64,000 bases of DNA from positions 62,001 to 126,000 of the forward strand of contig JACQVA010000006.1 of assembly GCA_016210005.1 (NCBI GenBank), in the 5' to 3' direction. Each line of letters begins with the position of its first letter. The stretch's first letter is position 1. Of the stretch, positions 5,291-60,915 are shown piece after piece. The translations under genes and the position numbers were made by a program. Under the pieces are notes generated by a model. That model searched no databases. It saw only the letters and a list, made by a program, of their open reading frames with translations, and was not told where the DNA came from. Origin of the DNA: Deltaproteobacteria bacterium (GTDB taxonomy: Bacteria > Desulfobacterota > Binatia > HRBIN30 > JACQVA1).

Positions 5291-6346
5291 GTGAAGGCCT
5301 TCGTCACCGGCGCCACCGGCTACGTCGGCCAGGCGGTGGTGCGCGACCTGCTCGCGCACGGCCACCAGGTCAGGGCGTTGGTCCGCAAAACCAGCGACAC
5401 CCGTTACCTCGACGGCCTCGAGGTCGAGCGGGCGTATGGGGACCTGCGCGAGCCCCAGTCGCTGCGCGCAGGCATGGAAGGCTGCGATACGCTGTTCCAC
5501 GTTGGCGCCGCCGTCGCGCTCTGGGCGGCCGACCCGAGCGAGTTCATCGACGCCAACGTCTTGGGCACCCGCATGATCCTGCGGCTGGCCCGCGAGTTGC
5601 GCTACCAAAAGGTCGTGTACACCAGCAGCATCGCCTGCGTCGGGCCGCACCTCGACGGCACGCCGGCCACCGAGGAATCGGTCTACCGCTGGACGCCGAG
5701 CGATCCTTACATGATGTCGAAGTACATGGCCGAGATGGAAGCGCTGCAGGAGGTCGCGCGCGGCTGCCCGGTCGTGATCGTCAACCCGGCGTCGTGCTAC
5801 GGCGAGTTCGACTACCGGCCCTCGCTACCGGGCATGCTGGTGCTGCACTTCCTGTGCGGCCGGATGAAGGTCTACATCGACAGCACCATGAACATGATCG
5901 ATATCCGCGACCAGGCCCGCGGGCACGTGCTGGCGGCCGAGAAGGGGCGCGTCGGCGAGCGCTATCTGATCGGCAACGAGAACGTCCGCGTGTTGGACGC
6001 CTGCCAGATGATGCACGAGATCACCGGCCTGCCGATGCCCAAGTTCCGCATTCCCATCCGGGTCGCGATGTTCTTCGGGCTGATCGCCCAGTTGCGCGCC
6101 GAGTACATCACCCGCAAGGCGCCGTCGATGAACTACCATGCGATGAAGATGGGCCAGTTCCACATCGCCTACGATTGCTCGAAGGCCGTGCGCGAGCTGG
6201 GCCTCGAACTGCACCCGGTGCGCCACGGGCTGGAGCGCGCCATCGACTGGTTTATGAACAACGGCTTCGTGCCCGAGAAGAACGTTCGCATCTATCGCGA
6301 GCATCGTGCGAAGCTGGGACCGGCCCCGGCCACGGCAACCGCATGA
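5291..6346 (+). CDS. NAD(P)-dependent epimerase/3-beta-hydroxysteroid dehydrogenase-like protein
   Basis: An extended short-chain dehydrogenase of 351 aa. It has an N-terminal Rossmann GATGYVGQAVV motif and a YMMSK catalytic Tyr-Lys pair, and the body resembles the dihydroflavonol reductase/3-beta-HSD/hopanoid-associated epimerase group. These enzymes oxidise or reduce a secondary alcohol on a sugar, flavonoid or sterol. The GTG start at 5291 follows the SCP2 stop by 12 nt, and the stop overlaps the next ATG (ATGA). Pairing with SCP2 suggests a lipid alcohol rather than a nucleotide sugar; this is inference. Confidence 0.85.
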   Translation: MKAFVTGATGYVGQAVVRDLLAHGHQVRALVRKTSDTRYLDGLEVERAYGDLREPQSLRAGMEGCDTLFHVGAAVALWAADPSEFIDANVLGTRMILRLARELRYQKVVYTSSIACVGPHLDGTPATEESVYRWTPSDPYMMSKYMAEMEALQEVARGCPVVIVNPASCYGEFDYRPSLPGMLVLHFLCGRMKVYIDSTMNMIDIRDQARGHVLAAEKGRVGERYLIGNENVRVLDACQMMHEITGLPMPKFRIPIRVAMFFGLIAQLRAEYITRKAPSMNYHAMKMGQFHIAYDCSKAVRELGLELHPVRHGLERAIDWFMNNGFVPEKNVRIYREHRAKLGPAPATATA

Positions 6347-8298
6347 GCCAGTTCGAGTACCTCTTCAGTCCCCTGCGCATCGGCAACGTGACGGTCGACA
6401 ACCGCATCGTCATGATGCCGGCCACCACGCTGCTGTCGTCCGATCATCTGATCGGCGACCGGCACATCGCTTACTATGCCGAGCGCGCCAAGGGCGGCGC
6501 TGGGCTGGTGATCGTCGAGACCCTGATCGTGCATCCGAGCTCGCAGCCGTTGATGAACGAGGCGTTTGCATACGACGAGCGCGAAGTGCCCCGCTATCGC
6601 GAGCTGACCAAGGCGGTGCACGCGCATGGGGCAAAGGTCTTCGCCCAGATCGCCCACGGCGGCCGGCAGCTGATCGACGGCAGCATCTCACGCCTGCCGC
6701 TGCTCGGGGTGTCGCCGTTGGCGCTGTCGGTGGCGAGCGAGACCCCGCACGAAATGGACGAACAGGAAATCGCCGAGCTGATCGAAGCCTACGCCACCTG
6801 CGCCGGCCACATCCGCGACGGCGGCTTCGACGGCGTCGAGCTGCACGCCTCGCACGGCTACCTGATCCAGCAGTTCTTTTCGCCGCTGAGTAACCAGCGC
6901 ACCGACCGCTGGGGCGGCGCGCTGGAGAACCGCATGCGTTTCGCTTTCGAGGTCATCAAGGCGGTGCGCCGCAGCGCCGGCGATGACTTCGTGCTCGGCC
7001 TGCGCTTGTCGGCCGACGAGTTCGTGCCCGGCGGCTTGACCACCGACGATACCCAGGAGATCGCCCGCCACCTGGTGGCCACGGGCCAGCTCAACTACCT
7101 CTCGGTCAGCGCCGGCATGGGGCAAACCCCGTTCCTGATCACCTGCGACATGAGCTTCCCGCCGGGTTCGCAAGCCTATCTGGCCGGACTGATCCGCGAG
7201 GTGGCGGGCGAGGTCCCAGTGTTCGCCTCGCAGCGGATCAACGATCCGATCCTGGCCGAGCGCATCCTCGCCGAGGGCCAGGCCGACATGGTCGGCATGA
7301 CGCGGGCCTTGATCGCCGACCCCGAACTGCCGCGCAAGGCGCGCGAGGGCCGGCTGGCCGAAATCCGCGCCTGCATCGGTTGCAACCAGAACTGCATCGG
7401 CCGCGTCATGCAGAGCAAGTCGATCGGCTGCATCCAGAACGCTGCCGCCGGCCGCGAGCGCGAGTGGGGTATTGGCACGCTGAGCGCGGCCCCGAAGCGC
7501 AAGCGCGTCACCGTCATCGGCGGCGGCCCCGGCGGTATGGAGTGTGCCCGCATCCTGGCCGAACGCGGCCACGCGGTCACGCTTTACGAAAAGGCGGCTC
7601 AGCTCGGCGGCCAGATCAATCTCATCACCCAAGCGGCCGGCCGCCAGGAGTTCGGCGGCGTCGTGCGCTACCTCGCCTACCAGATGGAGAAGCTCGAAAT
7701 CGACGTGCGCTTGCAGACGGCGGCAACCGCCGCGGCCGTCCTGGCTGAGAAGCCGGATGCGGTGGTGGTGGCCACCGGCTCACTGCCGGCACACCCCGAG
7801 CTCCCGGGTGCCGACGGGCCCAACGTCTGTGACGTCAGCGAGCTGCTGGCGGGCCGCGTGCAACCCGGCAAGCGGGCCGTGGTCATCGACGGCGAGTGCC
7901 ATTACCGCGCGCTGACGGCGGCCGACTTCCTGCTCAACCGGGAAGTTGCCGTCGAAGTGCTCAGCCCCGTGTTCTTCGTCGGCATGAACGTTGCCATGCC
8001 GAGCTTGATCATCACTTACATGAACCTGTGCAGCAAAGGCGCGGTGTTCACGCCCATGCATATGGTCCGCAGCATCGCCGGCGACAGCGTCAACGCTTTT
8101 CACGTCTTCTCCTTCGCCGAGCGCACGATCACGGACATCGACACGGTGGTGTTCGCCTATCCTGGCCGGGCGGACGACGCGCTTTACAAGCAGCTCAAGG
8201 GACAGGTGCCCGAGCTGTACCAGATCGGCGATTGCGTTGCGCCCCGCAAGGTCGACATGGCCATCCTCGAAGGGCACGAGGTCGGACGGCGGATATGA
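6343..8298 (+). CDS. OYE-type Fe-S flavoenzyme, 2,4-dienoyl-CoA reductase-like
   Basis: A full-length 651-aa enzyme. The N-terminal FMN-binding TIM barrel (about 1-340) has the ELHASHGYLIQQF signature. A 4Fe-4S cluster motif C344-x2-C347-x3-C351-x11-C363 follows. The C-terminal FAD/NAD Rossmann region begins with VIGGGPGGMECA (about 390) and ends at YQIGDC. Members such as FadH reduce dienoyl-CoA or other activated alkenes through NADPH, FAD, Fe-S and FMN. The start is in an ATGA overlap with the dehydrogenase, and the stop overlaps the CoA transferase. It is a paralogue of the fragment at the window start, so the locus carries two such reductases. Confidence 0.92.
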   Translation: MSQFEYLFSPLRIGNVTVDNRIVMMPATTLLSSDHLIGDRHIAYYAERAKGGAGLVIVETLIVHPSSQPLMNEAFAYDEREVPRYRELTKAVHAHGAKVFAQIAHGGRQLIDGSISRLPLLGVSPLALSVASETPHEMDEQEIAELIEAYATCAGHIRDGGFDGVELHASHGYLIQQFFSPLSNQRTDRWGGALENRMRFAFEVIKAVRRSAGDDFVLGLRLSADEFVPGGLTTDDTQEIARHLVATGQLNYLSVSAGMGQTPFLITCDMSFPPGSQAYLAGLIREVAGEVPVFASQRINDPILAERILAEGQADMVGMTRALIADPELPRKAREGRLAEIRACIGCNQNCIGRVMQSKSIGCIQNAAAGREREWGIGTLSAAPKRKRVTVIGGGPGGMECARILAERGHAVTLYEKAAQLGGQINLITQAAGRQEFGGVVRYLAYQMEKLEIDVRLQTAATAAAVLAEKPDAVVVATGSLPAHPELPGADGPNVCDVSELLAGRVQPGKRAVVIDGECHYRALTAADFLLNREVAVEVLSPVFFVGMNVAMPSLIITYMNLCSKGAVFTPMHMVRSIAGDSVNAFHVFSFAERTITDIDTVVFAYPGRADDALYKQLKGQVPELYQIGDCVAPRKVDMAILEGHEVGRRI

Positions 8299-9509
8299 CG
8301 GCATTAGCCACGCCGGCCTTCGGCCCGCTGCCAGGGCTGCGCATTCTCGACACCGGCCGCAACAACGCCGGGCCGTGGGCGGCCTCGCTGGCGGCGGATT
8401 TCGGCGCCGAGGTCATCCACGTCGAGCCGCTGCAAGGCGAGATCTACCGCTTCGATCAATCCGCTTGGGCGCAGGAAAAACGCAACCAGCGCGACCTCAC
8501 GCTCAATCTCGGCAACCCGCAAGGCCGGGAGATATTCTTGCAGCTGTGCGCGCGCGCCGACATCTGGATCGAGAGCTCCATCCCCGGCACTTACGGCCGG
8601 CTCGGGCTGACCGACGAGGCGGTCTGGAAGGTCAACCCCAAGCTGGTCATCGTCCACGTCTCCGGCTTCGGCCAGACCGGCCACCCCGACTACGTCCGGC
8701 GCGCCTCCTACGACATGATCGGCCAAGCCTTCGGCGGGCTGATGTTCATCCAGGGCCTGCCCGAGCCCAATCCGCCGATCGCCGCCAAGCCCTATTTGTG
8801 CGATTACATCACCGGTTTGTGGTCGCTGTGGTCGGCGCTGGCGGCGTACGTCAGCGCGCAACGCACCGGCAAAGGCCAGGCCATCGACATCTCCCAATAC
8901 GAGTGCATGCTGCGCATGCTCGCCGACACCGCGATCAACTATTTCCAGAACGACGAGGTCAAGCAGCGGCTGGGCAACCGCCATCCGGTGGCGGTGCCGT
9001 GGGACACCTATCAGAGCGGCGACGGCGTGTGGTTTTGCATCAACGCCGCCAGCGAGCCGTTCTCGCGCCTGTGCCGCGCCCTCGGCGTCGATCCCGACGA
9101 CGAGCGCTGGTCGCCGCAGTTCGAGAAATGTCTTTCAGGCATGCCTGGGGCAGTTGCCTTCGAGGCCGAGCTGCGCCGCTGGCTGCAGGCGCACACTGCC
9201 GCCGAGGTCGAAGCCATTCTCACCGTCGAGTACCAGGTGCCGTGCCAGCGGGTGTACAGCATCAAGGATTTAGCTGACGATCCGCATTGTGCGGCGCGGG
9301 AGAACTTCATCGAGTGGGACGATCCGGTGTGGGACCGGGTCAAGGGCGTGGGCATCATTCCGAAATTCTCGGCCACTCCGGGGCAGGTCTGGCGCGGAGC
9401 GCCGGGCCTGGGTCAGGACAATGCCGAAATCCTCGGGGCGCTCGGTTACAGCCCGGAACGGGTGGCCGAATTACGCGCGGCCGGGGTCATCGGCGAGGAC
9501 TACAGCTGA
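8295..9509 (+). CDS. CaiB/BaiF family (class III) CoA transferase
   Basis: A 404-aa class III CoA-transferase. It has an N-terminal PLPGLRILDTGRNNAGPW, the DLTLNL strand, VSGFGQTG, and the active-site Asp in ASYDMIGQAFGG (about D140), which forms the covalent aspartyl-CoA/anhydride intermediate in the family. It moves CoA between carboxylic acids without ATP. The gene overlaps the flavoenzyme stop by 4 nt and is followed 21 nt later by an acyl-CoA dehydrogenase, which fits recycling of CoA from a product acid to an incoming substrate. Confidence 0.92.
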   Translation: MTALATPAFGPLPGLRILDTGRNNAGPWAASLAADFGAEVIHVEPLQGEIYRFDQSAWAQEKRNQRDLTLNLGNPQGREIFLQLCARADIWIESSIPGTYGRLGLTDEAVWKVNPKLVIVHVSGFGQTGHPDYVRRASYDMIGQAFGGLMFIQGLPEPNPPIAAKPYLCDYITGLWSLWSALAAYVSAQRTGKGQAIDISQYECMLRMLADTAINYFQNDEVKQRLGNRHPVAVPWDTYQSGDGVWFCINAASEPFSRLCRALGVDPDDERWSPQFEKCLSGMPGAVAFEAELRRWLQAHTAAEVEAILTVEYQVPCQRVYSIKDLADDPHCAARENFIEWDDPVWDRVKGVGIIPKFSATPGQVWRGAPGLGQDNAEILGALGYSPERVAELRAAGVIGEDYS

Positions 9510-9530: not shown

Positions 9531-10679
9531 ATGGATTTCGGCTTCACCCAAGAGCAAGAGCTGCTGCGTAACACCGTGCGCGACTTCATGCGCCGCGAAT
9601 GCCCGCCGCAATACGTGCGCAGCTGCGATGAGCAACACCGTTTCCCGTCGGAGCTGCGCGCCAAGATGGCGGCGCAGGGCTGGTTCGGCACCATGGTGCC
9701 GGAGGCCTACGGCGGCAGCGGCCGCGGCATCATCGACATCGCCATCATCATCGAGGAGACGGCGCGCTGGGGCATCGGCTGCGATTTCATTCCCACCGGC
9801 ATCTTCAGCGCCGAGGCGCTGTCCAAGTACGGCAGCGAGGCGCAGAAACAGAAGTACCTGCCGCGCATCGCCCGCGGCGAGGTGATCTTCGGGATTTCCT
9901 TCACCGAGCCGGAGGCCGGCACCGATTTCGCCGCCCTCACCACCAGCGCCGACGCCCGCGGCGATGAACTGGTGCTCAACGGGCACAAGATGTTCACCAG
10001 CCTGATCAATCTCGCCGACGTCATCATCGTCGCCGCCCGCACCGACAAGACGGCGAAGAAGCACAAGGGCATCTCGCTGCTGCTGCTCGACCCCAAGGCG
10101 CCCGGCGTCACCATGCGCGAGATCCCCAAACTCGGCGGCCACATCATTCCCACCTACGAGGTCTGGTACGAGAACGTGCGCGTCCCACGCGAGAACCTCC
10201 TGGGCGAGTTGAACAACGGCTGGTATCAGCTGATCGCCACCATCAACACCGAACGCGTCGGCATCTCGGCGCACAATACCGGCAGCGCCCGCGCCGCGCT
10301 CGACTACGCCGTGCAATACGTCGGCCAGCGCCAGCAGTTCGGCCAGCCGATCGGCAAGTTCCAGGCGATCCAGCACAAGCTGGCGGCCGATTACCTCGAG
10401 GTCGAAGCGGCGCGCTTGCTCACTTACAGCGCCGCCTGGTACCTCTCGCAGGGCGATAGCGTCGAAACTCACATGCAGTGCGCGCTGGCCAAGTTGAAGT
10501 CGTCCGAGATCTACAAGCAGGTGACGCTCGACGGCATGCAGGTGATGGGCGGCTACGGCTACTGCATGGAGTTCCCGATGCAGCGCTGGCTGCGCGAGGC
10601 GGTGCTGCAAACCGTCGATCTCGGCAACACCGAGGTCATGCTCTCGACCATCGCCTTTCTCATGGGGATGCCGAGGTAA
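9531..10679 (+). CDS. acyl-CoA dehydrogenase (IVD/LCAD-type catalytic Glu)
   Basis: A 382-aa acyl-CoA dehydrogenase with the FAD/substrate signature GISFTEPEAGTDFA and the FGQPIGKFQAIQ region. The Glu found in the GEGT loop of MCAD-type enzymes is absent (the loop reads VDLGNTEV). A Glu occurs in NTERVGIS (E241), where isovaleryl- and long-chain acyl-CoA dehydrogenases carry their base. It should oxidise an acyl-CoA to the 2-enoyl thioester and pass electrons to ETF. The ATG at 9531 follows the CoA-transferase gene by 21 nt. Confidence 0.93.
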   Translation: MDFGFTQEQELLRNTVRDFMRRECPPQYVRSCDEQHRFPSELRAKMAAQGWFGTMVPEAYGGSGRGIIDIAIIIEETARWGIGCDFIPTGIFSAEALSKYGSEAQKQKYLPRIARGEVIFGISFTEPEAGTDFAALTTSADARGDELVLNGHKMFTSLINLADVIIVAARTDKTAKKHKGISLLLLDPKAPGVTMREIPKLGGHIIPTYEVWYENVRVPRENLLGELNNGWYQLIATINTERVGISAHNTGSARAALDYAVQYVGQRQQFGQPIGKFQAIQHKLAADYLEVEAARLLTYSAAWYLSQGDSVETHMQCALAKLKSSEIYKQVTLDGMQVMGGYGYCMEFPMQRWLREAVLQTVDLGNTEVMLSTIAFLMGMPR

Positions 10680-10687: not shown

Positions 10688-11539
10688 ATGCCTACCGTCA
10701 CGACTGCCGGCGCAAAGCTCTACTACGAAGAGGCCGGGGCCGGCTCGGCGGTGGTGTTGGCCCACGGCGGCGGCGGCGATCTCAGCCAATGGCGCCATCA
10801 GGTCCCCGCGCTGGCAGCACACCACCGCGTGATTGCCTTCGATGCGCGCGGCCACGGCCGCTCCGCGGCGAGCACGCCACCCGGACGAATCACCGACTTC
10901 GCCGACGACATCGCCGAGTTGTTGCGTCACCTCGGCATTGCCCGCGCGCACTTGATCGGCGCCACCCTCGGCGGCGTCGCGGTGCTGGAGTTCGCCCTCG
11001 CCCGGCCCGCCGCGGTGCAAAGCCTGGTGCTGATCAGCACTGCACCCGATACCACCGAGGAGATGCGTCTGCGCTTTGAAGCTTCCGCCGAGGTGGTCGA
11101 GTCCGGCGACCTCGCCGGCTTTGCCGAAGGCTTCATCAGTTTCATCTTCTCGTCCGACTTTGCCGACAGCCATCCGGACGACCTGGCGGACTTCCGCCAG
11201 CGGCTCGAACGGATCGACCCGGCCGGCTATGCCGCCTCGATTCGCGCTCTGGGCAATCGACCTGACCTGACCCCCCGCCTCGGACAGCTGCGGGTGCCGG
11301 CGTTGATCGTGACCGGTGCCCTCGACCCGATCCCGACCTCGGCACCCGGCGCGGCGCTGCTCGCGCAGGCGTTGCCGAACGCACGCAACCAAGTCATCCC
11401 AGATGCGGCGCATCTGCCGCAGATCGAGCGGCCGGACCTCTTTAATCGCTTGGTGCTCGACTTCTTCGCCGCGGCAGAGCGGCAAGCGGCGGGCACTGCG
11501 CCGCGGCCACCCGGCGCGGGACATGAGGGAGTAGCATGA
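10688..11539 (+). CDS. alpha/beta-hydrolase fold protein with Thr at the nucleophile position
   Basis: A 283-aa alpha/beta-hydrolase. The oxyanion region LAHGGGGDLSQW and FDARGHGRS are clear, as are an acid Asp in GALDPIP (about D213) and a His in AAHLPQIERP (about H242). The nucleophile elbow, normally G-x-S-x-G, reads IGATLGG, with Thr93 at the Ser position. It may be a Thr hydrolase, a lyase-like member or a non-catalytic binder. It starts 8 nt after the dehydrogenase and its stop overlaps the next start (ATGA). Confidence 0.87.
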   Translation: MPTVTTAGAKLYYEEAGAGSAVVLAHGGGGDLSQWRHQVPALAAHHRVIAFDARGHGRSAASTPPGRITDFADDIAELLRHLGIARAHLIGATLGGVAVLEFALARPAAVQSLVLISTAPDTTEEMRLRFEASAEVVESGDLAGFAEGFISFIFSSDFADSHPDDLADFRQRLERIDPAGYAASIRALGNRPDLTPRLGQLRVPALIVTGALDPIPTSAPGAALLAQALPNARNQVIPDAAHLPQIERPDLFNRLVLDFFAAAERQAAGTAPRPPGAGHEGVA

Positions 11540-12993
11540 ACCCTTCGCGCGGCATTCACAGCATTCGCGACCAGTACGACGTCGTGGTCGTCGGCGGCGG
11601 CCCCGGCGGGCTGGCCACGGCGGCCCTGCTCTGTCAGGGCGGCATGCGGCCGCTAGTGGTTGAGCAAAAGCCGACGCTCGGCGGCCGTTATCGCGCCATC
11701 GAGTTTGCCGGCTGCCGTGTGGACATCGCCGAGCACCTGCTCACCGGCATGGTCAACGACATCGACGACGCCTACGCCAAACAGGTGTTCGACAAACTCG
11801 GGCTGGCGCTGGCGCAGAAGGAGATCAAGTGGGTGATGGGCTTGGTCGGCCGCAGCGGCGGGCCCGCTATCGACTTCTTCTCGATGGATCGCACCAAGGG
11901 GGTCGAGAACTTCTTCGACTTCTTTTCGTTCGCCGCCGGTATGCCGCTGGGCGAGCTCGAGAAAGCGGAGATGTCGCGCATCTTCCATCTCATGGCCGAC
12001 ATGTCGCCCGAGGCCTGCCGTAAGCAAGTGCACATGAGCTTTGCGGAGTGGCTCGACCGGCACGTGCAGAATCCCGTCGTCCACATGGTGCTGGCAGGCG
12101 TGACCGGGCCGCTGCAAGGCAGCACCGCCGACAAGGTCAACATCGGCCAGATGGCCAATATCTTCGGCTCCTTCCCGCGCATCGGTGCCGTCCCGTTCTG
12201 GTATCCGGCCAACGGCATTCTGGCCGACACCATCATCGCGCCGCTGGCCACCTACATTCGGGCTCACGGCGGCGACGTCGTCTGCGGGGTGAAGGCGCGC
12301 CGGGTGCTGTTCGACGGCCACAAGGTCAGCGGCGTCTGGATGCGGGACGAAGACGAGATGCTGCGCGAGGTGCAAACGCCGCGGGTGGTGGTAGCCTATC
12401 CGATCCAGTTTGCCGTCGGCTTTCGCCGCTTGATTCCCGACGAGATGCTCACCCCGGAGGGCCGCGCCTCGATCGCCCAGCTGCGCGAGCTGTCGCATGA
12501 AGACCTGACCGTCTTCTATCTGCTGCGCGAGCGGGTCATTCCCGAGGACTACTACGGCTGGATCCACCTCTTCGACGCGGCCGAAGGGCAGCCCAACTAC
12601 GTCGGCGACTGGATCTTGGGGGACATGATCAACGCCAAGGTGCCGACGGGAAAACAGCTCGTCGGCAACTACATCACGGCCAACTTCGAAGGCACCCAGT
12701 TCGGCCTCGATGCCTCACCCGCGATGGTGCGCAAAGCCATCAATAAGTGGGAAGCCGCGGTGGAGAAGGTGTTCCCGGACTTCACCCGCCAAGTCGAAGC
12801 GCGGGTGTACAATCTCCAACTCAACTGGGGCCGCTACTCGTACTCGGTCATGCCGCGGGAATTGTCGGTGCGGGCGCTCGGGGTCGAAGGCCTGTATTTC
12901 GCCGGCGATTCGATTCTGTCCGTCAGCAGTCTGGCTTCCGACAAGGTTTACGACGTCGCCCTGCAGTGCGCCGAGGCGGTGTTGAACCACTAA
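11536..12993 (+). CDS. FAD-dependent oxidoreductase, phytoene desaturase/amine oxidase-like
   Basis: A 485-aa flavoprotein. The N-terminal dinucleotide motif VVVVGGGPGGLATAALL is followed by a second glycine motif (PTLGGRY). The C-terminal FAD closure is YFAGDSILSVSSLASDK. This architecture is shared by carotenoid desaturases, retinol saturase and related isoprenoid or steroid oxidoreductases. No carotenoid synthase (crtB/crtE) is nearby, so a catabolic or pigment role cannot be decided. The gene overlaps the hydrolase stop by 4 nt and precedes the first DUF1329 gene by 17 nt. A second, different member lies at 20213-21826. Confidence 0.82.
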   Translation: MNPSRGIHSIRDQYDVVVVGGGPGGLATAALLCQGGMRPLVVEQKPTLGGRYRAIEFAGCRVDIAEHLLTGMVNDIDDAYAKQVFDKLGLALAQKEIKWVMGLVGRSGGPAIDFFSMDRTKGVENFFDFFSFAAGMPLGELEKAEMSRIFHLMADMSPEACRKQVHMSFAEWLDRHVQNPVVHMVLAGVTGPLQGSTADKVNIGQMANIFGSFPRIGAVPFWYPANGILADTIIAPLATYIRAHGGDVVCGVKARRVLFDGHKVSGVWMRDEDEMLREVQTPRVVVAYPIQFAVGFRRLIPDEMLTPEGRASIAQLRELSHEDLTVFYLLRERVIPEDYYGWIHLFDAAEGQPNYVGDWILGDMINAKVPTGKQLVGNYITANFEGTQFGLDASPAMVRKAINKWEAAVEKVFPDFTRQVEARVYNLQLNWGRYSYSVMPRELSVRALGVEGLYFAGDSILSVSSLASDKVYDVALQCAEAVLNH

Positions 12994-13010: not shown

Positions 13011-14318
13011 ATGCCGCTCATCAGAATCATCTGCCTGGCCGCAGTGCTGACCGCGACGCCGGCGCTGGCCGAGACGCTGCAGCCCGGCATGGTGCTGGAC
13101 GAGAAGACCTGGCAGCTCGCCGCCGATCTCTTACCGCCGGAGATTCTGGATCACTACAAGCGCGGCGAGTACCGCAACCCGGTGGCGGAATGGCCGGACG
13201 GTGCGGTCAACCTCGGCCCCGACTACGCCAGCGCCACCGCGGCCAACGCCGGGCGCTTCGAGGTCAGTCCTGCCGGCGGCATCATCGAGAAGGGCAGCGG
13301 CCAGCGGCCGGCGGCGATTTACGGCTTTCCGTTCCCCGAGATTGCGCCCAATGATCCCCAGGCCGGCATCAAGGTGCTGTGGAACTACTACTACGGCTAC
13401 TGGTCCAACGGCAGCCGCCGCAACGTCACCGACGTCCTCTGGCTCGGCCGTTCGCGTCTTGATCGCACCGCGATGATTGACGTCTGTTTCGCGCAGTACG
13501 ACGGCCAGCCGCCCGACGACCGCCCGAAGAGCAATCCCAACGAGGTGTTGCAGCAGTTCCTCGCCGCCACCCTGCGGCCGGCGGATCTGCAAGGCACCAC
13601 CTCGCTCACCTGGCGCTACCGCGCGGCCGACAAGCGTGACTCCAACTGGGCCTACGTTCCCGCCTTGCGCCGAGTGCGCCAGGTGTCGCCGGCAAATCGC
13701 TCCGACGGTTTCCTCGGCTCCGATATGAGCCAGGACGACGGCCCCTTCTTCGACGGCAAGCCGGAGGACTTCGTCTGGACGCTGGTCGGCGAACGCCAGA
13801 CACTGCGCCTCGCCGATCCTTACAGCCTCAAGGGCGAATTCACCTACCAGCCACTGCCCGGCGGCGGCTGGCGCGTGCCCTTCAAGGCGCTGCCGATGGT
13901 GGGCGTGCAACAGGCGGACTGGAGCGGCCTGGCTTGGGCGCCGCTCAACTTCGTGCTGGTGCAACGCCCGATGTGGGTCATCGAAGGTGTGCCGCGCGAC
14001 CAGTACTACCTCTTCGGCAAGATTCAGCTGTACATCGACAAGGAGAACTTCCGCGGCGCGTGGAGCCGCAAGTTCAACTGGGCCGGCGAATTGGTCACCA
14101 CTTATCAGGTCGGCGCTTACGTCAACGGCAGCCCCGACGGCAAGCACTATATCTGGGGCCACGCGCTCTACTACCAAGTGGCCGAGAACTTCAAGCAGGG
14201 GCGCGCTACCTATGCCGGCGCACCGCCGCCGCAAATGCACGACGCGGCCAACGACTTTTTCGTTTCCTACGACTCGGAGTTCTTCAGCTACCAGTCGCTG
14301 GTCCGCTTTGGAAAGTAA
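13011..14318 (+). CDS. exported DUF1329 family protein, copy 1
   Basis: 435 aa with an N-terminal signal peptide (hydrophobic core ICLAAVLTATPALA, cleavage probably after ALA), then a DUF1329 body. The repeated landmarks SDGFLGSDMSQDDGPFFDGKPEDF and the LFGKIQLYID strand also occur in copy 2 at 15761-17071. DUF1329 belongs to a LolB/LppX-like beta fold and is found next to hydrocarbon, steroid and lipid catabolic genes. A role in binding or passing hydrophobic substrate in the periplasm or outer membrane is plausible but unproven. The start has a GAGGAG site. Confidence 0.88.
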   Translation: MPLIRIICLAAVLTATPALAETLQPGMVLDEKTWQLAADLLPPEILDHYKRGEYRNPVAEWPDGAVNLGPDYASATAANAGRFEVSPAGGIIEKGSGQRPAAIYGFPFPEIAPNDPQAGIKVLWNYYYGYWSNGSRRNVTDVLWLGRSRLDRTAMIDVCFAQYDGQPPDDRPKSNPNEVLQQFLAATLRPADLQGTTSLTWRYRAADKRDSNWAYVPALRRVRQVSPANRSDGFLGSDMSQDDGPFFDGKPEDFVWTLVGERQTLRLADPYSLKGEFTYQPLPGGGWRVPFKALPMVGVQQADWSGLAWAPLNFVLVQRPMWVIEGVPRDQYYLFGKIQLYIDKENFRGAWSRKFNWAGELVTTYQVGAYVNGSPDGKHYIWGHALYYQVAENFKQGRATYAGAPPPQMHDAANDFFVSYDSEFFSYQSLVRFGK

Positions 14319-14361: not shown

Positions 14362-15747
14362 ATGAAAACGGCCGTGCAGTTACGAGGGCGCGAACGAGTC
14401 GCCGCCTTACAAGCGCAGTTTCCCACCATCCCGCGGGCGATCGTGATCAAGACCGACGTTCTGCGCGAAGGCATCCAGCCCAACGAGTTGTTGCCGCGCG
14501 TCGGCCCGCACGCCTTCCCTCACTTCCTGGTGTGGAACTCCGATCACGTGTGGAACCCGGCGGTGCAAGCCGGCAGCGAGGTCAAGGCGATTCCGTGGAA
14601 CTTCATCCTGGACGACGGACACGCGCCGGTGGTCTGCCGGCTCGATTCCGCCAGCCCCTACGAGATCCGCCTCACCGAAGCCAAGGGTTTCGTGCTCTTT
14701 CGCGACGGCCAAGCGATCGAGCCGGTGCGCTTCGAGCGCGGCGCGCGCTGGATCTTCGACACCACCTCCGACGGTACCATGAACGGATCGGTGTTCCTGT
14801 CGTGGACGCGCGAGGCCTTGCTCGGCGCAGCGCTGCGCTACTGCGAGTACACCAAGTCCGGCGACCAATGCCGCTACTGCTGCCTCGATGCCGAAGCCAG
14901 CCGCTTCAGCGAGTTGGGCTTCAAGCTCGATATGGCGGTCAAGCCGGCCAATGCCGCCGAAGCCTACCGCGCCGCGGTGATCGAAACCGGCAGCATCCGC
15001 CAGGTGTCATTCACCGGCGGCAGCTTGCTGAACACCAACAAGGAAATGGAGAAATACATCGCGCTGTACGCCGCCCTGCGCGACGTGCGCGACGAACTCA
15101 AGGCCGACACCCAGTTCTACGCCTGTGTCACCGCCCCGCCCGATCGTGAGATCCTGACGCGCTTGCACGATGCCGGCTTGTACCACATCGCCCCCAACAT
15201 GGACTGCTGGGAGGAAAAGCTCTGGCCCGTCATCGTTCCGGGAAAGCACAAGTTCGTCGGCCGCCAGTACTGGATCGACTCGTTGCTCATGTGCCTGGAG
15301 GTTTACGGCGCCGGCATGGTAGGAAGCGCCTTCGTGGTCGGGCCCGAAATGGTGCAACCGTATGGCTTCAAAGACCTCGATCAAGGCCTGGCCTCGTGGA
15401 CCGGCTGCTTCGAGTGGTGCACGCAACACAAGATCGTACCCATGCTGATCCCGTGGCAAAAGGAAGTCGGCTCTCCTTGGGAGCACGAGGTGCCGCCGCC
15501 GGCCGAATACACCCTGGCTGTGTTCGCCGAGCGCCACCGCTGCATGGAAGCTGCCGGCCTGTACGGGATCATGGATCACAACTACTTCATGGGCCAGGCG
15601 TGGGATACCAACGCGGACTTCCGGCGGCTCGCCCACGGCTGCTCGTGCGCCAACTGCGCCCCGCCGCCGTACGGGCCCGAGCGCTACGTCGATCCGGCCG
15701 AGTTCCAGGCCGGGGCTGTTGCCGGCGCGCAACCCACCGCGCTGTGA
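14362..15747 (+). CDS. radical SAM family protein with CX8CX2C motif
   Basis: A 461-aa cytosolic protein without a signal peptide. The candidate radical SAM 4Fe-4S site is C161-x8-C170-x2-C173 (YCEYTKSGDQCRYCCLD), longer than the usual CX3CX2C. After it comes VSFTGGSLLN, which resembles the GGE-type SAM-binding motif. A C-terminal C427-x-C429-x2-C432 group could hold an auxiliary cluster. The first 150 residues match nothing I recognise. A strong GGGAGGTGAG ribosome site precedes the ATG. It sits exactly between two exported DUF1329 paralogues, 43 nt after the first and 13 nt before the second. Reaction unknown. Confidence 0.75.
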   Translation: MKTAVQLRGRERVAALQAQFPTIPRAIVIKTDVLREGIQPNELLPRVGPHAFPHFLVWNSDHVWNPAVQAGSEVKAIPWNFILDDGHAPVVCRLDSASPYEIRLTEAKGFVLFRDGQAIEPVRFERGARWIFDTTSDGTMNGSVFLSWTREALLGAALRYCEYTKSGDQCRYCCLDAEASRFSELGFKLDMAVKPANAAEAYRAAVIETGSIRQVSFTGGSLLNTNKEMEKYIALYAALRDVRDELKADTQFYACVTAPPDREILTRLHDAGLYHIAPNMDCWEEKLWPVIVPGKHKFVGRQYWIDSLLMCLEVYGAGMVGSAFVVGPEMVQPYGFKDLDQGLASWTGCFEWCTQHKIVPMLIPWQKEVGSPWEHEVPPPAEYTLAVFAERHRCMEAAGLYGIMDHNYFMGQAWDTNADFRRLAHGCSCANCAPPPYGPERYVDPAEFQAGAVAGAQPTAL

Positions 15748-15760: not shown

Positions 15761-17071
15761 ATGAAGCGTACGGCAACACTGTGGTTCTTGGCCACGCTGG
15801 TCGCGACCAGCACCGTTCGGGCGCAGGAGTTGAAGCCGGGCGATACCCTGTCGCAGCAGAACTGGCAACTCGCCAAGGATCTGCTGCCCCCGGAGATCCT
15901 GCGCCACTACGAGCGCGGCGAATACGTCAGCCCGATCCTGGCCTGGGAGAACGGCCGCCAGAAGTGGAGCGCCGACTTCCTCGAGGCGACCGCGCGCAAC
16001 GCCACCGAGTTGGCTCTCGACGCCAAGGGCAGCATCGTCGACAAGGCCACCGGCAAGCGGCCGGCTTACATGCGCGGCTTCCCGTTCCCCAACGTGACCG
16101 CCGATGATCCCCAGGCGGCGTTGAAAATCCTGTGGAACCACTACCTCTACTGGTGGAACAACGGCAACCTGCGAAACTACGTCGAGATCAATTGGGTATC
16201 AAGTAAAGGCGTAGAACGAAAAGCCACACAGGACGTGTACTTCCTCTATTACCAGGGCCAGCCGCGCCAGTACATCCCCACAAGTAACCCAGATGACTTG
16301 CTCACCCAGCTCTTGGCCACCACCGTGAAACCCGCCGACCTCAACGGCACCGCCGCGTTGAGCTGGCGCTACCGCGATCCCGAAAAGCGCGACTCCTCCT
16401 GGGCCTACGTGCCCGCTCTGCGGCGCGTGCGCGCGGTCTCGCCCACCAACCGCTCCGATGGCTTCCTCGGCTCCGACATGAGTCAGGACGACGGCCCCTT
16501 CTTCGACGGCAAGCCGGAGGACTTCAACTGGAAGCTGGCCGGGGAACAGGATATCCTGCGCCTGACTGATCCCTACAGTCTCGACGGCGAGCAGCACCGG
16601 GTGCAACTGCCCAGCGGCGGGTGGCGCGGCATATGGAAGAAGGTTCCCATGGTCGGGTTTCAGGACCCAAGCTGGCAAGGGTCGCCTTGGGCGCCTCTGG
16701 GCACCGCCCTGGCGCGCCGCCGCTGCTGGGTCATCGAGGCGGTGCCGAAGGACACCTACTATCTGTTCGGCAAGATCCAGCTTTACATCGATAAGGAGAC
16801 TTATCACGGCGCCTACAACCGCAAGTTCAACTGGAGCGGCGAGTTGGTCAATATCTACGTGGTGTTTGCCGATCTGAACGGAAGCTCGGGCGGTGACGGC
16901 GACTATTACGGGGCCGGGAACATCGTCTACCAAGGCGCCGAGAACCTCAAGCTCAGCCGCGCCACCGTGATCACCGCGCCGCCGGATCAAGCCGATCCGC
17001 CTAACGATCGCCGCATCAAGCTCGACCCCCAGTTCTTCAGCGCCCAGTCGCTGGTGCGGGCCGGGAAGTGA
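15761..17071 (+). CDS. exported DUF1329 family protein, copy 2
   Basis: 436 aa with a signal peptide (LWFLATLVATSTVRA) and the same DUF1329 landmarks as copy 1 (LLPPEIL, NRSDGFLGSDMSQDDG, FGKIQLYID, RKFNW). The two proteins are clearly paralogous along their whole length but diverged, so this is an old duplication. An AAAGGAG site precedes the start. As with copy 1, family knowledge points to an envelope protein binding something hydrophobic. A short segment near 16195-16235 (AAGTAAAGGCGTAGAACGAAAAG) is AT-richer than its surroundings but stays in frame. Confidence 0.88.
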   Translation: MKRTATLWFLATLVATSTVRAQELKPGDTLSQQNWQLAKDLLPPEILRHYERGEYVSPILAWENGRQKWSADFLEATARNATELALDAKGSIVDKATGKRPAYMRGFPFPNVTADDPQAALKILWNHYLYWWNNGNLRNYVEINWVSSKGVERKATQDVYFLYYQGQPRQYIPTSNPDDLLTQLLATTVKPADLNGTAALSWRYRDPEKRDSSWAYVPALRRVRAVSPTNRSDGFLGSDMSQDDGPFFDGKPEDFNWKLAGEQDILRLTDPYSLDGEQHRVQLPSGGWRGIWKKVPMVGFQDPSWQGSPWAPLGTALARRRCWVIEAVPKDTYYLFGKIQLYIDKETYHGAYNRKFNWSGELVNIYVVFADLNGSSGGDGDYYGAGNIVYQGAENLKLSRATVITAPPDQADPPNDRRIKLDPQFFSAQSLVRAGK

Positions 17072-17098: not shown

Positions 17099-18139
17099 AT
17101 GCGGGCGGCGCGCTGGTACGCCCCGCGTGATCTGCGCATCGAAGCGCTGGCGCCGCCGCAGCCGGGCGCCGGCGAGGTGCTGGTGCGAGTCGAGTGGTGC
17201 GGGCTGTGCGGCACCGACGTGCACGAGTACACGCACGGTCCGGTGCTGATCCCATCGCGCCCGCATCCGCTCACCGGCCGTGTGCCGCCGATCACACTGG
17301 GGCATGAATTCTGCGGCACGGTGGTCAGCGCCGCCGCCGGCTTCGCTGCCGGCGAGCGGGTTACGGCCAATGCCTGCCTGGTCTGCCACCAATGCGCGTG
17401 GTGCCGCGCGGGACAGCCCAACTTGTGCGCCAAGCTCGGTAGCATCGGCCTGTGCGCTGACGGCGGCCTGGCGGAGTTCGTCAACGTCCCCGCCTATTCG
17501 CTCTACCGCCTCCCTGCCGGCATGCCGGCGGAGGTGGGTGCGCTGGCCGAACCGACAGCGGTGGCGGTGCATGCCTGCCGGCGTGCGCGGCTGAAGCCGG
17601 GGGAAACCGTGGCGGTGGTGGGAGCAGGTACGATCGGTTTGTTGGTGTTGCAAGCGGCTCGCGCCGGCGGTGCCGCTGAGGTGTTCAGCATCGAGCCGAT
17701 CGCGGCCCGGCGCCAGTTGGCCGAGGAGCTGGGAGCGCGCCTGGCTCTCGATCCGGCGGCGAGCGCGGTCGATAAGGAGATCGCCGCCGCCACCGACAAC
17801 CGGCGCGCCGATGTCGTGTTCGAGTGCACCGGCTCGCTCGCCGGCATCGAAACCGCCTTGCGGGTTTCGGGCAAAGCCGGGCGCGTGGCGATTGTCGGCA
17901 TTTACCGCGACTCGTCGCCGGCGCCGTGGGCGCGCTTGCAAGCGCACGAGAAGGAGATCATCGGCTCCAGCGCCTACACCGACGAGTTCCCCGAGGCCCT
18001 GCGGCTGCTGGCGAGCGACGCCGTGCGCGGCGCCGCCTTGATCACTGATCGCATCGACCTCGCCGAGCTGGAAGCGCGCGGCCTGCGCGCCTTGCTCGAA
18101 GAGCCGGCAAAACATCTCAAAATCCTGGTCCAGCCTTAA
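17099..18139 (+). CDS. zinc-dependent alcohol dehydrogenase (MDR family, butanediol/threonine dehydrogenase-like)
   Basis: A 346-aa medium-chain dehydrogenase. Catalytic-zinc motifs are CGLCGTDVHE and GHEFCG. A structural-zinc Cys quartet lies in CLVCHQCAWCRAGQPNLC. The Rossmann motif is VVGAGTIGLLVLQ. It oxidises a primary or secondary alcohol with NAD(P)+. A CGGAGGAG ribosome site precedes the ATG. The position between DUF1329 copy 2 and an acyl-CoA dehydrogenase suggests oxidation of an alcohol intermediate before CoA activation. Confidence 0.92.
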   Translation: MRAARWYAPRDLRIEALAPPQPGAGEVLVRVEWCGLCGTDVHEYTHGPVLIPSRPHPLTGRVPPITLGHEFCGTVVSAAAGFAAGERVTANACLVCHQCAWCRAGQPNLCAKLGSIGLCADGGLAEFVNVPAYSLYRLPAGMPAEVGALAEPTAVAVHACRRARLKPGETVAVVGAGTIGLLVLQAARAGGAAEVFSIEPIAARRQLAEELGARLALDPAASAVDKEIAAATDNRRADVVFECTGSLAGIETALRVSGKAGRVAIVGIYRDSSPAPWARLQAHEKEIIGSSAYTDEFPEALRLLASDAVRGAALITDRIDLAELEARGLRALLEEPAKHLKILVQP

Positions 18140-18163: not shown

Positions 18164-19312
18164 GTGGAGTTCGAGCTCAACGACGAACAGCGGATGATCC
18201 GCGACCTCTGCCGCGATTTCGCGCAGCACGAGATCGCTCCGCACGCCGAGCAGTGGTACGACGCCGGTGAGTTCCCGACGGCGGTCTTCCGCAAGCTCGC
18301 CGAGCTGCAGCTGATGGGCTTGCTGATTCCCGAGGAGTACGGCGGCAGCAACACCGGCACGGTGGCCTTCGTCGCCGCCATGGAGGAGCTGGCGCGCGTC
18401 GACCAGTCGATCGCCGCCACCTGGAACGCGCACCTGACCATCGGCTCACTGCCCTACCTGCACTTCGGCACCGAGGAGCAGAAGCAACGTTACCTGGTGC
18501 CGCTGGCGCGCGGCGAGATCCTCGGCGCCTTCGGCCTCACCGAACCGGAGGCCGGCTCCGATGCCGCCAATATCAGTACCGCGGCGATCTTGGACGGCGA
18601 CTCCTGGGTCATCAACGGCACCAAGTGTTTCATCACCAACGCCGGCACGCCGCTGTCATACGGGCTGGTGGTACTGGCGGTGACCGGGCGTGACGCCGCC
18701 GGCAAGAAGCGTTACAGCACCCTGATCGTCCCGCGCGATACCCCCGGCTACACCGTCGGCCGCCGCTATCACAAGGTGGGTTGGCACACCGTCGACACCC
18801 GCGAGCAGGTATTCGAGGACTGCCGCGTGGCGCGCGAGAACTTGCTCGGCCCCGAAGGCGCCGGCTTGCGCCAGTTCATGCAGACCCTCGACGTCGGCCG
18901 CATCAGCATCGCCGCCTTGTCGGTCGGCCTGGCGCGCGCGGCCTTGGAATTGGCGCTGGCCCATGCCCAACAACGAGTGACGTTCGGCAAGCGCCTGAGC
19001 CAGCACCAGGCGATCCAGTTCAAGCTCGCCGATATCGCCACCGCGGTCGAGGCCGCGCGCCTGCTGGCATATCGCGCCGCCTGGCTGCGCGACAGCGGCC
19101 GGCCTTACGCCCAAGAGGCCGCCATGGCCAAGCTGTTCGCCTCCGAGGCGGCGGTGCGGGCCGCCGAGGAAGCGGTGCAGATCCACGGCGGCTACGGCTA
19201 CACCCGCGAGCACGCGGTCTCGCGCTTTTACCTGGACTCGAAAATCCTCACCATCGGCGAAGGCACCAGCGAGGTCCAACGCATGGTGATCGCCCGCCAT
19301 CTGGGCTGCTGA
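18164..19312 (+). CDS. acyl-CoA dehydrogenase (MCAD-type catalytic Glu)
   Basis: A 382-aa acyl-CoA dehydrogenase with FGLTEPEAGSDAANI, the VTFGKRLSQHQAIQFKLADI helix and QIHGGYGYTREH. The catalytic Glu is in the canonical loop TIGEGTSEVQRMVIARHLG (about E366). The IVD-type position reads Gly (LDVGRIS). It starts with a GTG at 18164, 24 nt after the alcohol dehydrogenase. It produces 2-enoyl-CoA with electrons to ETF. It differs in active-site architecture from the other dehydrogenase of this locus (9531-10679). Confidence 0.94.
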   Translation: MEFELNDEQRMIRDLCRDFAQHEIAPHAEQWYDAGEFPTAVFRKLAELQLMGLLIPEEYGGSNTGTVAFVAAMEELARVDQSIAATWNAHLTIGSLPYLHFGTEEQKQRYLVPLARGEILGAFGLTEPEAGSDAANISTAAILDGDSWVINGTKCFITNAGTPLSYGLVVLAVTGRDAAGKKRYSTLIVPRDTPGYTVGRRYHKVGWHTVDTREQVFEDCRVARENLLGPEGAGLRQFMQTLDVGRISIAALSVGLARAALELALAHAQQRVTFGKRLSQHQAIQFKLADIATAVEAARLLAYRAAWLRDSGRPYAQEAAMAKLFASEAAVRAAEEAVQIHGGYGYTREHAVSRFYLDSKILTIGEGTSEVQRMVIARHLGC

Positions 19313-19346: not shown

Positions 19347-20198
19347 ATGAACGATGCAGAGCTGAAGCAGTTGGGCCGGCGCGCGCGTGAGCGCTTGGAG
19401 GCGGCGCTGGCGGTCAATGATCTGGACGAGGCCCGGCGCGCCTGCGCCGAGCTGCCCAAGGAGTACGTGCTGATTCACAAAGGGCTGCGCCAGGTCCTCG
19501 AATACGCCATGGAGTACATCGAGCAGATCTTCCGCGCCGAGCAGGCCGCGGTCGCCGCCCGCATCACCGCCGCCGTCGAAGCCGGCGACTTCGACCGGGC
19601 GCGCGCCTTGCTGCACGAGCGCGATCGCCAGCACCAAGTCATCCACGATCGGTTCATCGACACGAAAGCCGGCTTCTACAGTTACGTCGCTGAGGTCTTC
19701 GGTGATCAGCGCCTGGAAGGCATCCTGCGCCATACCGGCGAACGCCAGCGCGCCGGCTTCGAGCGCTGGGAGCAACAGTGGCGAGGCGAGTCGGCAGCCG
19801 CCTTCACCCGCGCTTCGGTCCATCTGCTCAAGACCCACATGGGGCGGGTGAGCGTGAGCGAGGACGAGGAGAAGTTCACCATCACCCAAGACCCGTGCGG
19901 CTCCGGCGGCCGGCTGATGCGCGAGGGCGCCTATGATCGGCCCGACGGGCTTAGCCGCGTCGACCGCCCGCAAGCCATGACCTTCGACAAGCCCGATTTT
20001 CCCAGCTACTGTGCCCACTGCGCGGTGTGGAACAACATTCAGTGCATCGAGTGGTTCGGTCACCCGCAGTGGGCGATCGATCACCCGGCGACCCCGGACG
20101 ACCCCTGCCGCATTCACATCTACAAAGATCCCGGCCGCGTCCCCGAGCGCTACTACCGCCAAGTCGGTAAACAGCGACCGGATAAGCCGCAAACTTGA
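19347..20198 (+). CDS. conserved-looking hypothetical protein with Cys motifs (283 aa)
   Basis: A soluble 283-aa protein. The first 170 residues are mostly charged helices with possible coiled-coil character. The C-terminal third holds DPCGSGGRL followed by YCAHCAVWNNIQC and DDPCRIH, which looks like a metal or Fe-S site (Cys about 193, 226, 229). I do not recognise a named family. The gene lies in the + strand run, 34 nt after the acyl-CoA dehydrogenase and 14 nt before the flavoprotein gene, so it is likely a partner of the catabolic enzymes. It may be an L-2-amino-thiazoline- or V4R-like ligand sensor, but that is a guess. Confidence 0.65.
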   Translation: MNDAELKQLGRRARERLEAALAVNDLDEARRACAELPKEYVLIHKGLRQVLEYAMEYIEQIFRAEQAAVAARITAAVEAGDFDRARALLHERDRQHQVIHDRFIDTKAGFYSYVAEVFGDQRLEGILRHTGERQRAGFERWEQQWRGESAAAFTRASVHLLKTHMGRVSVSEDEEKFTITQDPCGSGGRLMREGAYDRPDGLSRVDRPQAMTFDKPDFPSYCAHCAVWNNIQCIEWFGHPQWAIDHPATPDDPCRIHIYKDPGRVPERYYRQVGKQRPDKPQT

Positions 20199-20212
20199 AC
20201 TGGAGGAGTGAC

Positions 20213-21826
20213 ATGCCCGAGACACAAACCTGTGACGTGGTGGTCATCGGCGCCGGCCCCAACGGGCTTTCGAGCGCCTGCTACCTGGCCCGCGCCGGGC
20301 TCGACGTGGTGGTGCTCGAACGCCGCGGTGACGGCATCGTTGGCGGCGGCGCCACCAGCGAGGAAGTGACCCTGCCCGGCTTCAAGCACAACCTGGGCGC
20401 GGTGTGGATGGGGGGCACGCTCTGGACCGGTGTTCACAAGGAGCTGGAGCTGAAAAAGTACGGGGTCAACTACCTCTACACGGATGTCGCCATGTCGGCC
20501 GTGTTCGATGACGGCAGCTGCATCCACTGGCATCACGACCTCGACAAGATGTGCGCCAACATCGCCCGCTACAATCGCCGCGACGCCGACACCTGGCGCG
20601 AGCTGTTCTTGACCTACAAGGACACCGCCCCGATGTGGGCCGCCGCCGAAGAGGCCGTCAGCGGCGCCGCCGCTGCCTCGCCCGGCTCGCTGTTTCTCTC
20701 CCCGCTCGAACGCAGCCCCGCCGGCCGCGAGCTGATCCGCTTGAGCATGAAGCCACCGGTCGATCTGGTGAACGACTTCTTCGAAGAACCCCGCCTGCGC
20801 AACCTGTTGCGCCAGCGCATCTCCGAAGGCTTCACCCGCCCCGACGACGAGCCGCAGCTCGGCAACCCATTCATCATGCACTTGATCATGAGCCATACCG
20901 TCGGGCGCAGCTTCGGGCTGGCGCAGGGCGGCACCGGCCAGGTTTGCCTGGCGCTGCGCAAGTGTCTGGAGGAAAGCCGCGGCCGGGTGCTGTTCGGCAA
21001 GGACGTTCGGGAGATCGTCACCGAGAACAAATCGGCCAGCGGAGTCGTTTGCAGCGACGGCTCGCGCTACACGGCCAAGAAGGGCGTCATCAGTGACGTC
21101 ACCCACGTCACCACCCTGCTGCAAATGGTCGGCGAGCAGCTACTGGAGCCGAAGTTCGCCCGCAAGGTGAAAACCTGGCGCTGGGAAGAGCACAGCTTCC
21201 ACAACACCCACTGGGCGCTGAATGAACCTGTAGTATGGAAGGCGTCGGACAACGACCCCGACATTCAGCGCTGCTGGTCGATCGCCGTGCTGCCGCTCGA
21301 TCCTGACGCCCACTGGCGCCAGTGTCACGAAGACAATCGCGCCGGCCGGCCGCCGCGCTCCTTGGGCTACTACGGCAGCTTTCCCACCGTGCTCGATCCG
21401 ACGCAGGCGCCCGCGGGTAAACACACCGGCTTGGCCTGGAAGCACTCGCCCTACGACCTCGAAGACGGCGGCGCAGCACGCTGGGACGCGATCAAAGAGG
21501 AGTACGCCGACCAGGTCGAGGAATTTACCGCCGGCTTCACCAAGAACGATTTCCGCAAGAGCATCCTCAAGCGTCACGTCGATTCGCCGCTCGACATCGA
21601 GCGGCGCAATCCCTCGTTCGTCAAGGGCTCGTGTTGCAACGGCTCCACCGAACCGCACCAGGTCGGCTACTACCGGCCGTTTCACGACTACCCGCAGGGA
21701 CGTTGCCCGATCGAGAAGCTGTACCTGGCCGGGGATTGGGTCGGTGTCACCGGCGGTGCGGGGCGCAACGCGGCCAGTGCGGTTCTGGACGATCTCAAGC
21801 TGAAGAAGTGGTGGGGCAAGAAGTAA
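20213..21826 (+). CDS. FAD-dependent oxidoreductase, phytoene dehydrogenase-like (COG1233 type)
   Basis: A 537-aa flavoprotein. The N-terminal FAD motif is CDVVVIGAGPNGLSSACYLARAG, and the C-terminal closure is LYLAGDWVGVTGGAGRNAASAV. It has the length and layout of carotenoid desaturase/isomerase-like NAD(P)/FAD oxidoreductases. The ATG at 20213 is chosen because of the TGGAGGAG site directly upstream; an in-frame ATG at 20195 overlaps the previous gene. The substrate is probably an isoprenoid or other lipid, inferred only from family and context. Confidence 0.83.
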   Translation: MPETQTCDVVVIGAGPNGLSSACYLARAGLDVVVLERRGDGIVGGGATSEEVTLPGFKHNLGAVWMGGTLWTGVHKELELKKYGVNYLYTDVAMSAVFDDGSCIHWHHDLDKMCANIARYNRRDADTWRELFLTYKDTAPMWAAAEEAVSGAAAASPGSLFLSPLERSPAGRELIRLSMKPPVDLVNDFFEEPRLRNLLRQRISEGFTRPDDEPQLGNPFIMHLIMSHTVGRSFGLAQGGTGQVCLALRKCLEESRGRVLFGKDVREIVTENKSASGVVCSDGSRYTAKKGVISDVTHVTTLLQMVGEQLLEPKFARKVKTWRWEEHSFHNTHWALNEPVVWKASDNDPDIQRCWSIAVLPLDPDAHWRQCHEDNRAGRPPRSLGYYGSFPTVLDPTQAPAGKHTGLAWKHSPYDLEDGGAARWDAIKEEYADQVEEFTAGFTKNDFRKSILKRHVDSPLDIERRNPSFVKGSCCNGSTEPHQVGYYRPFHDYPQGRCPIEKLYLAGDWVGVTGGAGRNAASAVLDDLKLKKWWGKK

Positions 21827-56987: not shown

Positions 56988-57004
56988 CTTGTTCCTCCAA
57001 TCAA

Positions 57005-60914: not shown

Positions 60915-60915
60915 T

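Follow-up and report, generated by a model that had tools for sequence, protein, structure and literature searches.

Radical SAM enzymes hold a [4Fe–4S] cluster on three cysteines that binds and cleaves S-adenosylmethionine (SAM), and the 5′-deoxyadenosyl radical so formed takes a hydrogen atom from the substrate. In biotin synthase (BioB) we take these cysteines to be spaced CX3CX2C, and the acidic residue of an N-x-[E/D] motif presumably contacts SAM. Spacing of the CX3CX2C kind is usual in the superfamily but not required, as CX5CX2C, CX14CX2C and CX2CX4C also occur as terms in PMC4389238. Both LipA and LipS2 have CX3CX2C according to a section of PMC9585515, in which C276 and C279 near the C terminus of LipS2 are required for activity. 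A subfamily of divergent radical SAM proteins has already been catalogued as the NCBIfam domain model NF045502, ‘variant_rSAM’, which names no function, and part of a 2005 paper places the radical SAM proteins of Nit1C gene clusters next to COG2516, ‘biotin synthase-related’ (PMC1199592). The literature searched contained no work on a CX8CX2C radical SAM protein and no described function or reaction for any member.

P0001, a 461-residue protein of this variant family, is encoded in the window (the whole 64,000-nucleotide stretch analysed here). Its reading frame runs from an ATG at 14362 to a TGA ending at 15747 without an internal stop, has the ribosome-binding site GGGAGG directly upstream and lies 13 bp from a downstream gene that is itself preceded by AAGGAG. 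Cysteines occur at positions 92, 161, 170, 173, 174, 255, 282, 311, 349, 353, 394, 427, 429 and 432; the canonical CX3CX2C is absent, and CX8CX2C takes its place as a fixed variant. The features of the gene are as follows, with counts referring to 36 aligned relatives.

14362–15747, + strand: variant radical SAM gene, P0001, 461 aa (translation; NF045502 179.8 bits against a cut-off of 125)
14842–14880, + strand: codons of C161-x8-C170-x2-C173, putative SAM-binding [4Fe–4S] site (invariant in 36/36; C170-x2-C173 aligned with cluster cysteines of BioB, MqnE and ThiH)
15013–15021, + strand: codons of T218-G219-G220, putative GG(E)-type SAM-binding motif (G220 in 35/36, G219 in 23/36)
15202–15204, + strand: codon of D281, in register with N-x-[E/D] of biotin synthase (E or D in 35/36)
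15640–15657, + strand: codons of C427-x-C429-x2-C432, C-terminal (in 3/36 aligned proteins; not a family feature)

Conservation of the cysteine motif

Composition alone yields CX8CX2C in 215 of 20,000 shuffled versions of P0001, so the motif in one sequence proves little. Its conservation rules out a chance occurrence. Among 53 non-redundant relatives, which include P0001 and six paralogues and were collected as open reading frames of more than 250 codons matching a seven-paralogue profile at E ≤ 1e-4, 50 carry CX8CX2C, three carry CX9CX2C and none carries CX3CX2C, in a sample where motif-less relatives are perhaps under-represented because the profile includes the cysteine motif (matching itself draws on the full length). 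The set contains no duplicates and none of the own-genome loci L001–L007, L009, L011, L012 and L014. The alignment, A2, holds 36 of the 53, P0001 among them; the other 17, from branches already sampled, were dropped for balance. C161, C170 and C173 are the sole cysteines invariant throughout it, and every other cysteine is shared by at most 17 of the 36. Read from the alignment, the P0001 spacing would correspond to an extended loop linking the first cysteine to the second in an otherwise ordinary site, which would place about five more residues than usual ahead of the last two cysteines.

An earlier note, made from the letters of the window alone, had called P0001 a radical SAM-type protein with non-canonical spacing at C161-x8-C170-x2-C173 and had asked whether homologues keep the cysteines; the motif is present and its three cysteines are kept across relatives, the NF045502 score exceeds the cut-off, and the GG motif that the note expected is the T-G-G at 218–220. 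Two of its details fell. The ‘extra’ C174 is cysteine in 4 of the 36, which rules out a functional role, and the N-terminal 150 residues, described as novel, contain positions conserved family-wide, among them K30 (32/36), G37 (35/36), P99 (34/36) and G138 (35/36).

The source genome (5.9 Mb, 97.6% complete) encodes seven variant radical SAM paralogues, namely P0001 together with two others on contig C6 and a tandem set of four on contig C144, with identities to P0001 of 29–57%; an eighth, distant match lies on contig C266 (132.4 bits). Of 58 genomes searched, a number that includes this one, matches occur in 27 and exceed the cut-off in 22; the other genomes contain at most four matches each. 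With P0001 as query, 63 of 395 genomes of the phylum give a match at E ≤ 0.001; the best beyond its own genome has 30% identity, and close orthologues were not found among the 395. A scan of genome contigs gave one locus, L013, and the viral contigs scanned contained no relatives. Gene calls beyond the window were made by open reading frame and GC frame, and some of their starts are uncertain. In the tree, the seven paralogues group with three relatives (G107, G177 and G222) in a ten-member clade with support of 96/91; the seven alone form one side of a weakly supported branch (59/7).

As ligands of an auxiliary cluster, which the earlier note had proposed, C427, C429 and C432 do not hold up as a general feature, being cysteine in 4, 3 and 3 of the 36, and a family-wide auxiliary site at the CxCxxC is ruled out. 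Tails with a cysteine pair or triplet are nevertheless found in 13 of the 36, and for P0001’s own clade the idea is retained: nine of its ten members have such a tail (CxxC or CxCxxC), against 4 of the 26 other proteins, although one of the seven paralogues lacks the motif. The four tailed proteins outside the clade all fall in the branch of L059, annotated as an MSMEG_0568 protein, where a CX2CX2C tail occurs in 4/4 and CX9CX2C in 2/4.

Relation to described radical SAM enzymes

The match of P0001 to NF045502 spans residues 58–389, and all 36 aligned proteins match this model at E ≤ 0.001. The notion of an unassigned subfamily thus survives as to function and fails as to family, for which a model already exists. 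Within NF045502, the P0001 clade differs by cysteine-rich C termini and by the occurrence of seven paralogues in catabolic surroundings. Proteins of TIGR04043 (the MSMEG_0568 family of Nit1C) belong to the same wider family and share the long cysteine loop, and L059 has a C-terminal cysteine triplet; L059 and its relative L037, however, have CX9CX2C rather than CX8CX2C. The TIGR04043 genes are located in nitrilase clusters, whereas no nitrilase, GNAT or MSMEG_0572-type neighbours occur at 438–21826 of the window. P0001 reaches 51.6 bits against TIGR04043 (E 7e-14), far below the cut-off of 303.7, and MSMEG_0568/Nit1C membership is ruled out.

Searched alone, P0001 matches nothing at E ≤ 1 in Pfam, including PF04055 Radical_SAM, nothing at E ≤ 1 in the BioB model TIGR00433 or the LipS2 model NF053743, and nothing at E ≤ 1 in the PDB by phmmer. 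Its relatives reach further: PF04055 matches 26 of the 36 aligned proteins at E ≤ 1 (best 5.3e-15), NF053743 matches six, none of them P0001 (best 3.7e-14), and the HmdB and CofH models match two each. LipS2 membership of P0001 is ruled out, and no protein exceeds the cut-off of that model in the 14 genomes searched with it.

A profile of the 36 relatives, searched against the PDB, finds biotin synthase best (1.8e-8), followed by MqnE (1.3e-6), ThiH (2e-5) and PylB (8.6e-4). In these alignments, C170-x2-C173 coincides with the C-x2-C that forms the last two cluster cysteines of BioB, MqnE and ThiH, and D281 with the acidic residue of N-x-[E/D] in biotin synthase. Sequence alignment covers no more than part of the barrel between the P0001 family and ThiH, HydG, MqnE, HydE or PylB, whose cysteine spacing presumably differs from that of P0001, and the auxiliary-cluster ligands of BioB, LipA and LipS2 are not conserved in the P0001 family.

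The earlier note had also suggested a structure prediction as a check for the barrel. The AlphaFold model of P0001, built from an input of three sequences, is poor (mean pLDDT 43.3, pTM 0.45, below 50 in the region of the cysteine motif), yet radical SAM barrels match it best. The two best Foldseek matches of this low-confidence model are both lipoyl synthase of Mycobacterium tuberculosis (3.6e-4 and 5.8e-4). By VIA-align, the best 25 of the 50 matches listed for the poor model are all radical SAM enzymes (Z 10.5–13.8, rmsd 3.1–6.0 over 188–231 residues) and include lipoyl synthase, HydG, BioB, HydE, RlmN and MqnE. Lipoyl synthase, HydG, BioB and HydE lead (Z 11–14), with LipA best at 13.8; designed and unrelated TIM barrels start at Z 10.5, intermixed with more radical SAM enzymes. 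These matches support, with moderate weight, a predicted partial (β/α)6 TIM barrel.

Given the invariant cysteines, the register with BioB and MqnE and the family match, we are confident in assigning P0001 to the radical SAM enzymes, as a member of the CX8CX2C ‘variant_rSAM’ family that stands with BioB, LipA, HydE and MqnE within the superfamily. What is notable here is this clear kinship with BioB, LipA and MqnE, together with the presence of seven paralogues among catabolic genes.

Genomic context of P0001 and its paralogues

From 438 to 21826, catabolic genes run along the + strand of the window, and several of them overlap by 4 bp. The genes below stand in their order along the run; in addition, an amidohydrolase gene precedes and a GntR regulator gene follows that of the enoyl-CoA hydratase, the P0001 gene lies between the two DUF1329 genes, and a gene for a protein without a family precedes the last one.

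438–2411, + strand: AMP-binding CoA ligase (PF00501)
3267–4076, + strand: enoyl-CoA hydratase/isomerase (PF00378)
5291–6346, + strand: NAD-dependent epimerase, 3-beta-HSD-like (PF01370, PF01073; 37% to L010:16139–17155, beside the radical SAM cluster of C144)
6343–8298, + strand: FadH/OYE-type enoate or dienoyl reductase (PF00724; 33% to L010:7589–9727, beside the C144 cluster)
8295–9509, + strand: CoA-transferase family III (PF02515)
9531–10679, + strand: acyl-CoA dehydrogenase (PF00441)
10688–11539, + strand: alpha/beta hydrolase, PcaD-like (PF00561; NCBIfam)
11536–12993, + strand: FAD oxidoreductase, amine-oxidase type (PF01593)
13011–14318, + strand: DUF1329/LolA-like protein, directly upstream of the P0001 gene (PF07044, 5.7e-31)
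15761–17071, + strand: second DUF1329/LolA-like protein, 13 bp downstream of the P0001 gene (PF07044, 1.6e-36)
17099–18139, + strand: zinc alcohol dehydrogenase (NCBIfam matches, none over cut-off)
18164–19312, + strand: acyl-CoA dehydrogenase (NCBIfam matches, none over cut-off)
20195–21826, + strand: CrtO-like FAD oxidoreductase (NF045689 218.9 bits, below the cut-off of 1000)

The protein without a family (19347–20198, same operon) has 283 residues, matches neither Pfam nor NCBIfam, and contains cysteines in its C-terminal half. The OYE at 6343–8298 comes near the mycofactocin-linked OYE2 model (740.9 bits against a cut-off of 793.15); the genome contains no mycofactocin maturase (MftC-type) over cut-off, and a mycofactocin link was rejected. 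Elsewhere in the window, large genes at 53685–63899 have a third-position GC of 0.70–0.76, compared with 0.8–0.9 in most other window genes, and are possibly a foreign island.

Part of this operon recurs on contig C144, where the four tandem paralogues (L010:10401–16202) adjoin a DUF1329 gene, an OYE gene and an epimerase gene; the DUF1329 protein has 56% identity to both window copies. A 964-residue molybdopterin oxidoreductase is encoded nearby (L010:1395–4289). Near the two paralogues on contig C6, L008:4710–12003 encodes a transketolase, a bifunctional RhaD-like aldolase/SDR, an LsrF-like thiolase/aldolase and an adenine phosphoribosyltransferase, which, speculatively, could serve 5′-deoxyadenosine salvage. 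A radical SAM protein of a second kind, HpnJ-like and far under the cut-off of the HpnJ model, is encoded at L008:2051–3727.

For DUF1329 proteins of other bacteria, sections of the respective papers report that AmeB of Castellaniella is required for growth on limonene (PMC6394551) and PP_0766 of Pseudomonas putida for Tween 20 metabolism (PMC10866462). The limonene (ctm/mrc/ame) set of Castellaniella defragrans combines DUF1329 with phytoene-dehydrogenase-type FAD enzymes, a 2,4-dienoyl reductase and an acyl-CoA dehydrogenase in the covered portions of PMC4109377 and PMC6394551, where ‘radical SAM’ has no occurrences. Its gene classes are similar to those of the window, a comparison made at the level of gene class. 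The literature searched contained nothing joining radical SAM with DUF1329, or with DUF1302 and acyl-CoA dehydrogenase. Since DUF1329 occurs often in the class (matched in 54 of the 56 genomes searched, and 18 times in the P0001 genome), its adjacency to the P0001 gene is weak evidence, and an exclusive partnership with the radical SAM protein is ruled out by those 18 matches. The genome also contains cytochrome oxidase genes, two P450 matches and five Rieske matches, all short and in frames of 133–203 codons; given the cytochrome oxidase genes, an oxygen-sparing or oxygen-independent route is possible, not forced.

Proposed role and alternatives

We propose that P0001 is a hydrogen-atom-abstracting radical SAM enzyme in the CoA-linked catabolism of a hydrophobic compound, a statement that, taken as a whole, we consider evenly poised between right and wrong. 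C161, C170 and C173 would hold a [4Fe–4S] cluster that cleaves SAM reductively, and the 5′-deoxyadenosyl radical would abstract hydrogen at an unactivated position of its substrate, a hydrophobic intermediate that probably bears CoA or an acid group. Rearrangement, cleavage or oxidation of the radical product may then lead into the acyl-CoA dehydrogenase, hydratase and enoate reductase steps of the same operon, with the flanking DUF1329 proteins perhaps handling the apolar molecule at the outer membrane. We infer this substrate class from the operon, its partial duplication and the DUF1329 reports on limonene and Tween 20; the C144 cluster, which repeats the combination of variant radical SAM, DUF1329, OYE and epimerase, points in the catabolic direction. 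A more specific version, in which the seven CX8CX2C paralogues form a substrate-specific set acting on cyclic molecules of an isoprenoid- or steroid-like kind, which they would activate or open at unactivated C–H positions without an oxygenase and with delivery by DUF1329, is speculative and we think it rather improbable; it would add a catabolic radical SAM route alongside the known glycyl-radical, flavin and molybdenum ones.

Of the other roles considered, an enzyme that makes a cofactor, matures a partner or modifies a protein, in the style of MqnE, CofH, HydE or HmdB, would supply a product used by the operon’s oxidoreductases instead of performing a catabolic step. We judge this unlikely, if with some claim to attention: the enzymes nearest by profile or fold include MqnE, ThiH, PylB, HydE and HydG, the HmdB and CofH models each match two of the aligned proteins, and the OYE of the operon scores near the mycofactocin-linked model, but that genome-wide lack of a mycofactocin maturase over cut-off counts against it, and seven divergent paralogues, four of them in tandem, fit substrate diversification better. 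The kinship with BioB and LipA would also suit a sulfur-insertion or thiolation enzyme resembling BioB or LipS1/LipS2, in which a second cluster on the C-terminal cysteines (CxCxxC or CxxC) donates sulfur. The six aligned proteins that match LipS2 as well, the required C276 and C279 of LipS2 and the tails in nine of ten clade members argue for such chemistry. Yet beyond the three motif cysteines conservation reaches 17 of the 36 at most, the majority of relatives lack the C-terminal motif, as does one of the seven paralogues, and none of the operon genes was recognised as one for sulfur transfer; because the C-terminal cysteines vary too much, a shared sacrificial cluster is disfavoured, and we hold sulfur insertion to be improbable. 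Far less credible still is a cluster-binding redox or sensing protein that retained the barrel without acting on SAM. The missing Pfam Radical_SAM match and the unusual spacing would suit it, but the cysteine motif, T-G-G and [E/D]281 are kept over very divergent relatives, and these regions align with true SAM enzymes.

Should the catabolic role of P0001 be correct, hydrophobic compounds would be degraded by a direct use of radical SAM chemistry. Should it be wrong, annotation would still profit from the motif, from its alignment register with BioB and MqnE and from the clade with C-terminal cysteines. The family with the fixed CX8–9CX2C motif is widespread in bacteria, and seven divergent paralogues near catabolic genes narrow the substrate class, so that a first reaction for the family becomes testable.

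Relatives elsewhere have varied neighbours. Acyl-CoA dehydrogenase and CoA ligase genes lie beside those of G465 and G314, OYE and UbiD in G465, methylmalonyl-CoA mutase in G177, SAM synthetase in G173 and a methyltransferase in the f5 family. Other branches adjoin a nitrilase cluster, ThiS-like sulfur-carrier genes, MmgE/PrpD or, by eye, nitrogenase-like genes and ABC transporters. Because these surroundings differ, the context described above speaks for the substrate of the P0001 clade only, and the family appears to have more than one role. In the branch L038–L043, a distant CX8CX2C relative (L056:8713–13140, G003) adjoins a ThiS-family sulfur carrier and two PLP enzymes, which suggests a sulfur-related role there. 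In the f5 family (L049:9161–11129, L050, L054 and L055), the radical SAM gene is directly followed by one for a 189-residue protein, the L049 copy of which is a methyltransferase by Pfam. Nit1C-type relatives are annotated on plasmids of Klebsiella, Acetobacter and Komagataeibacter.
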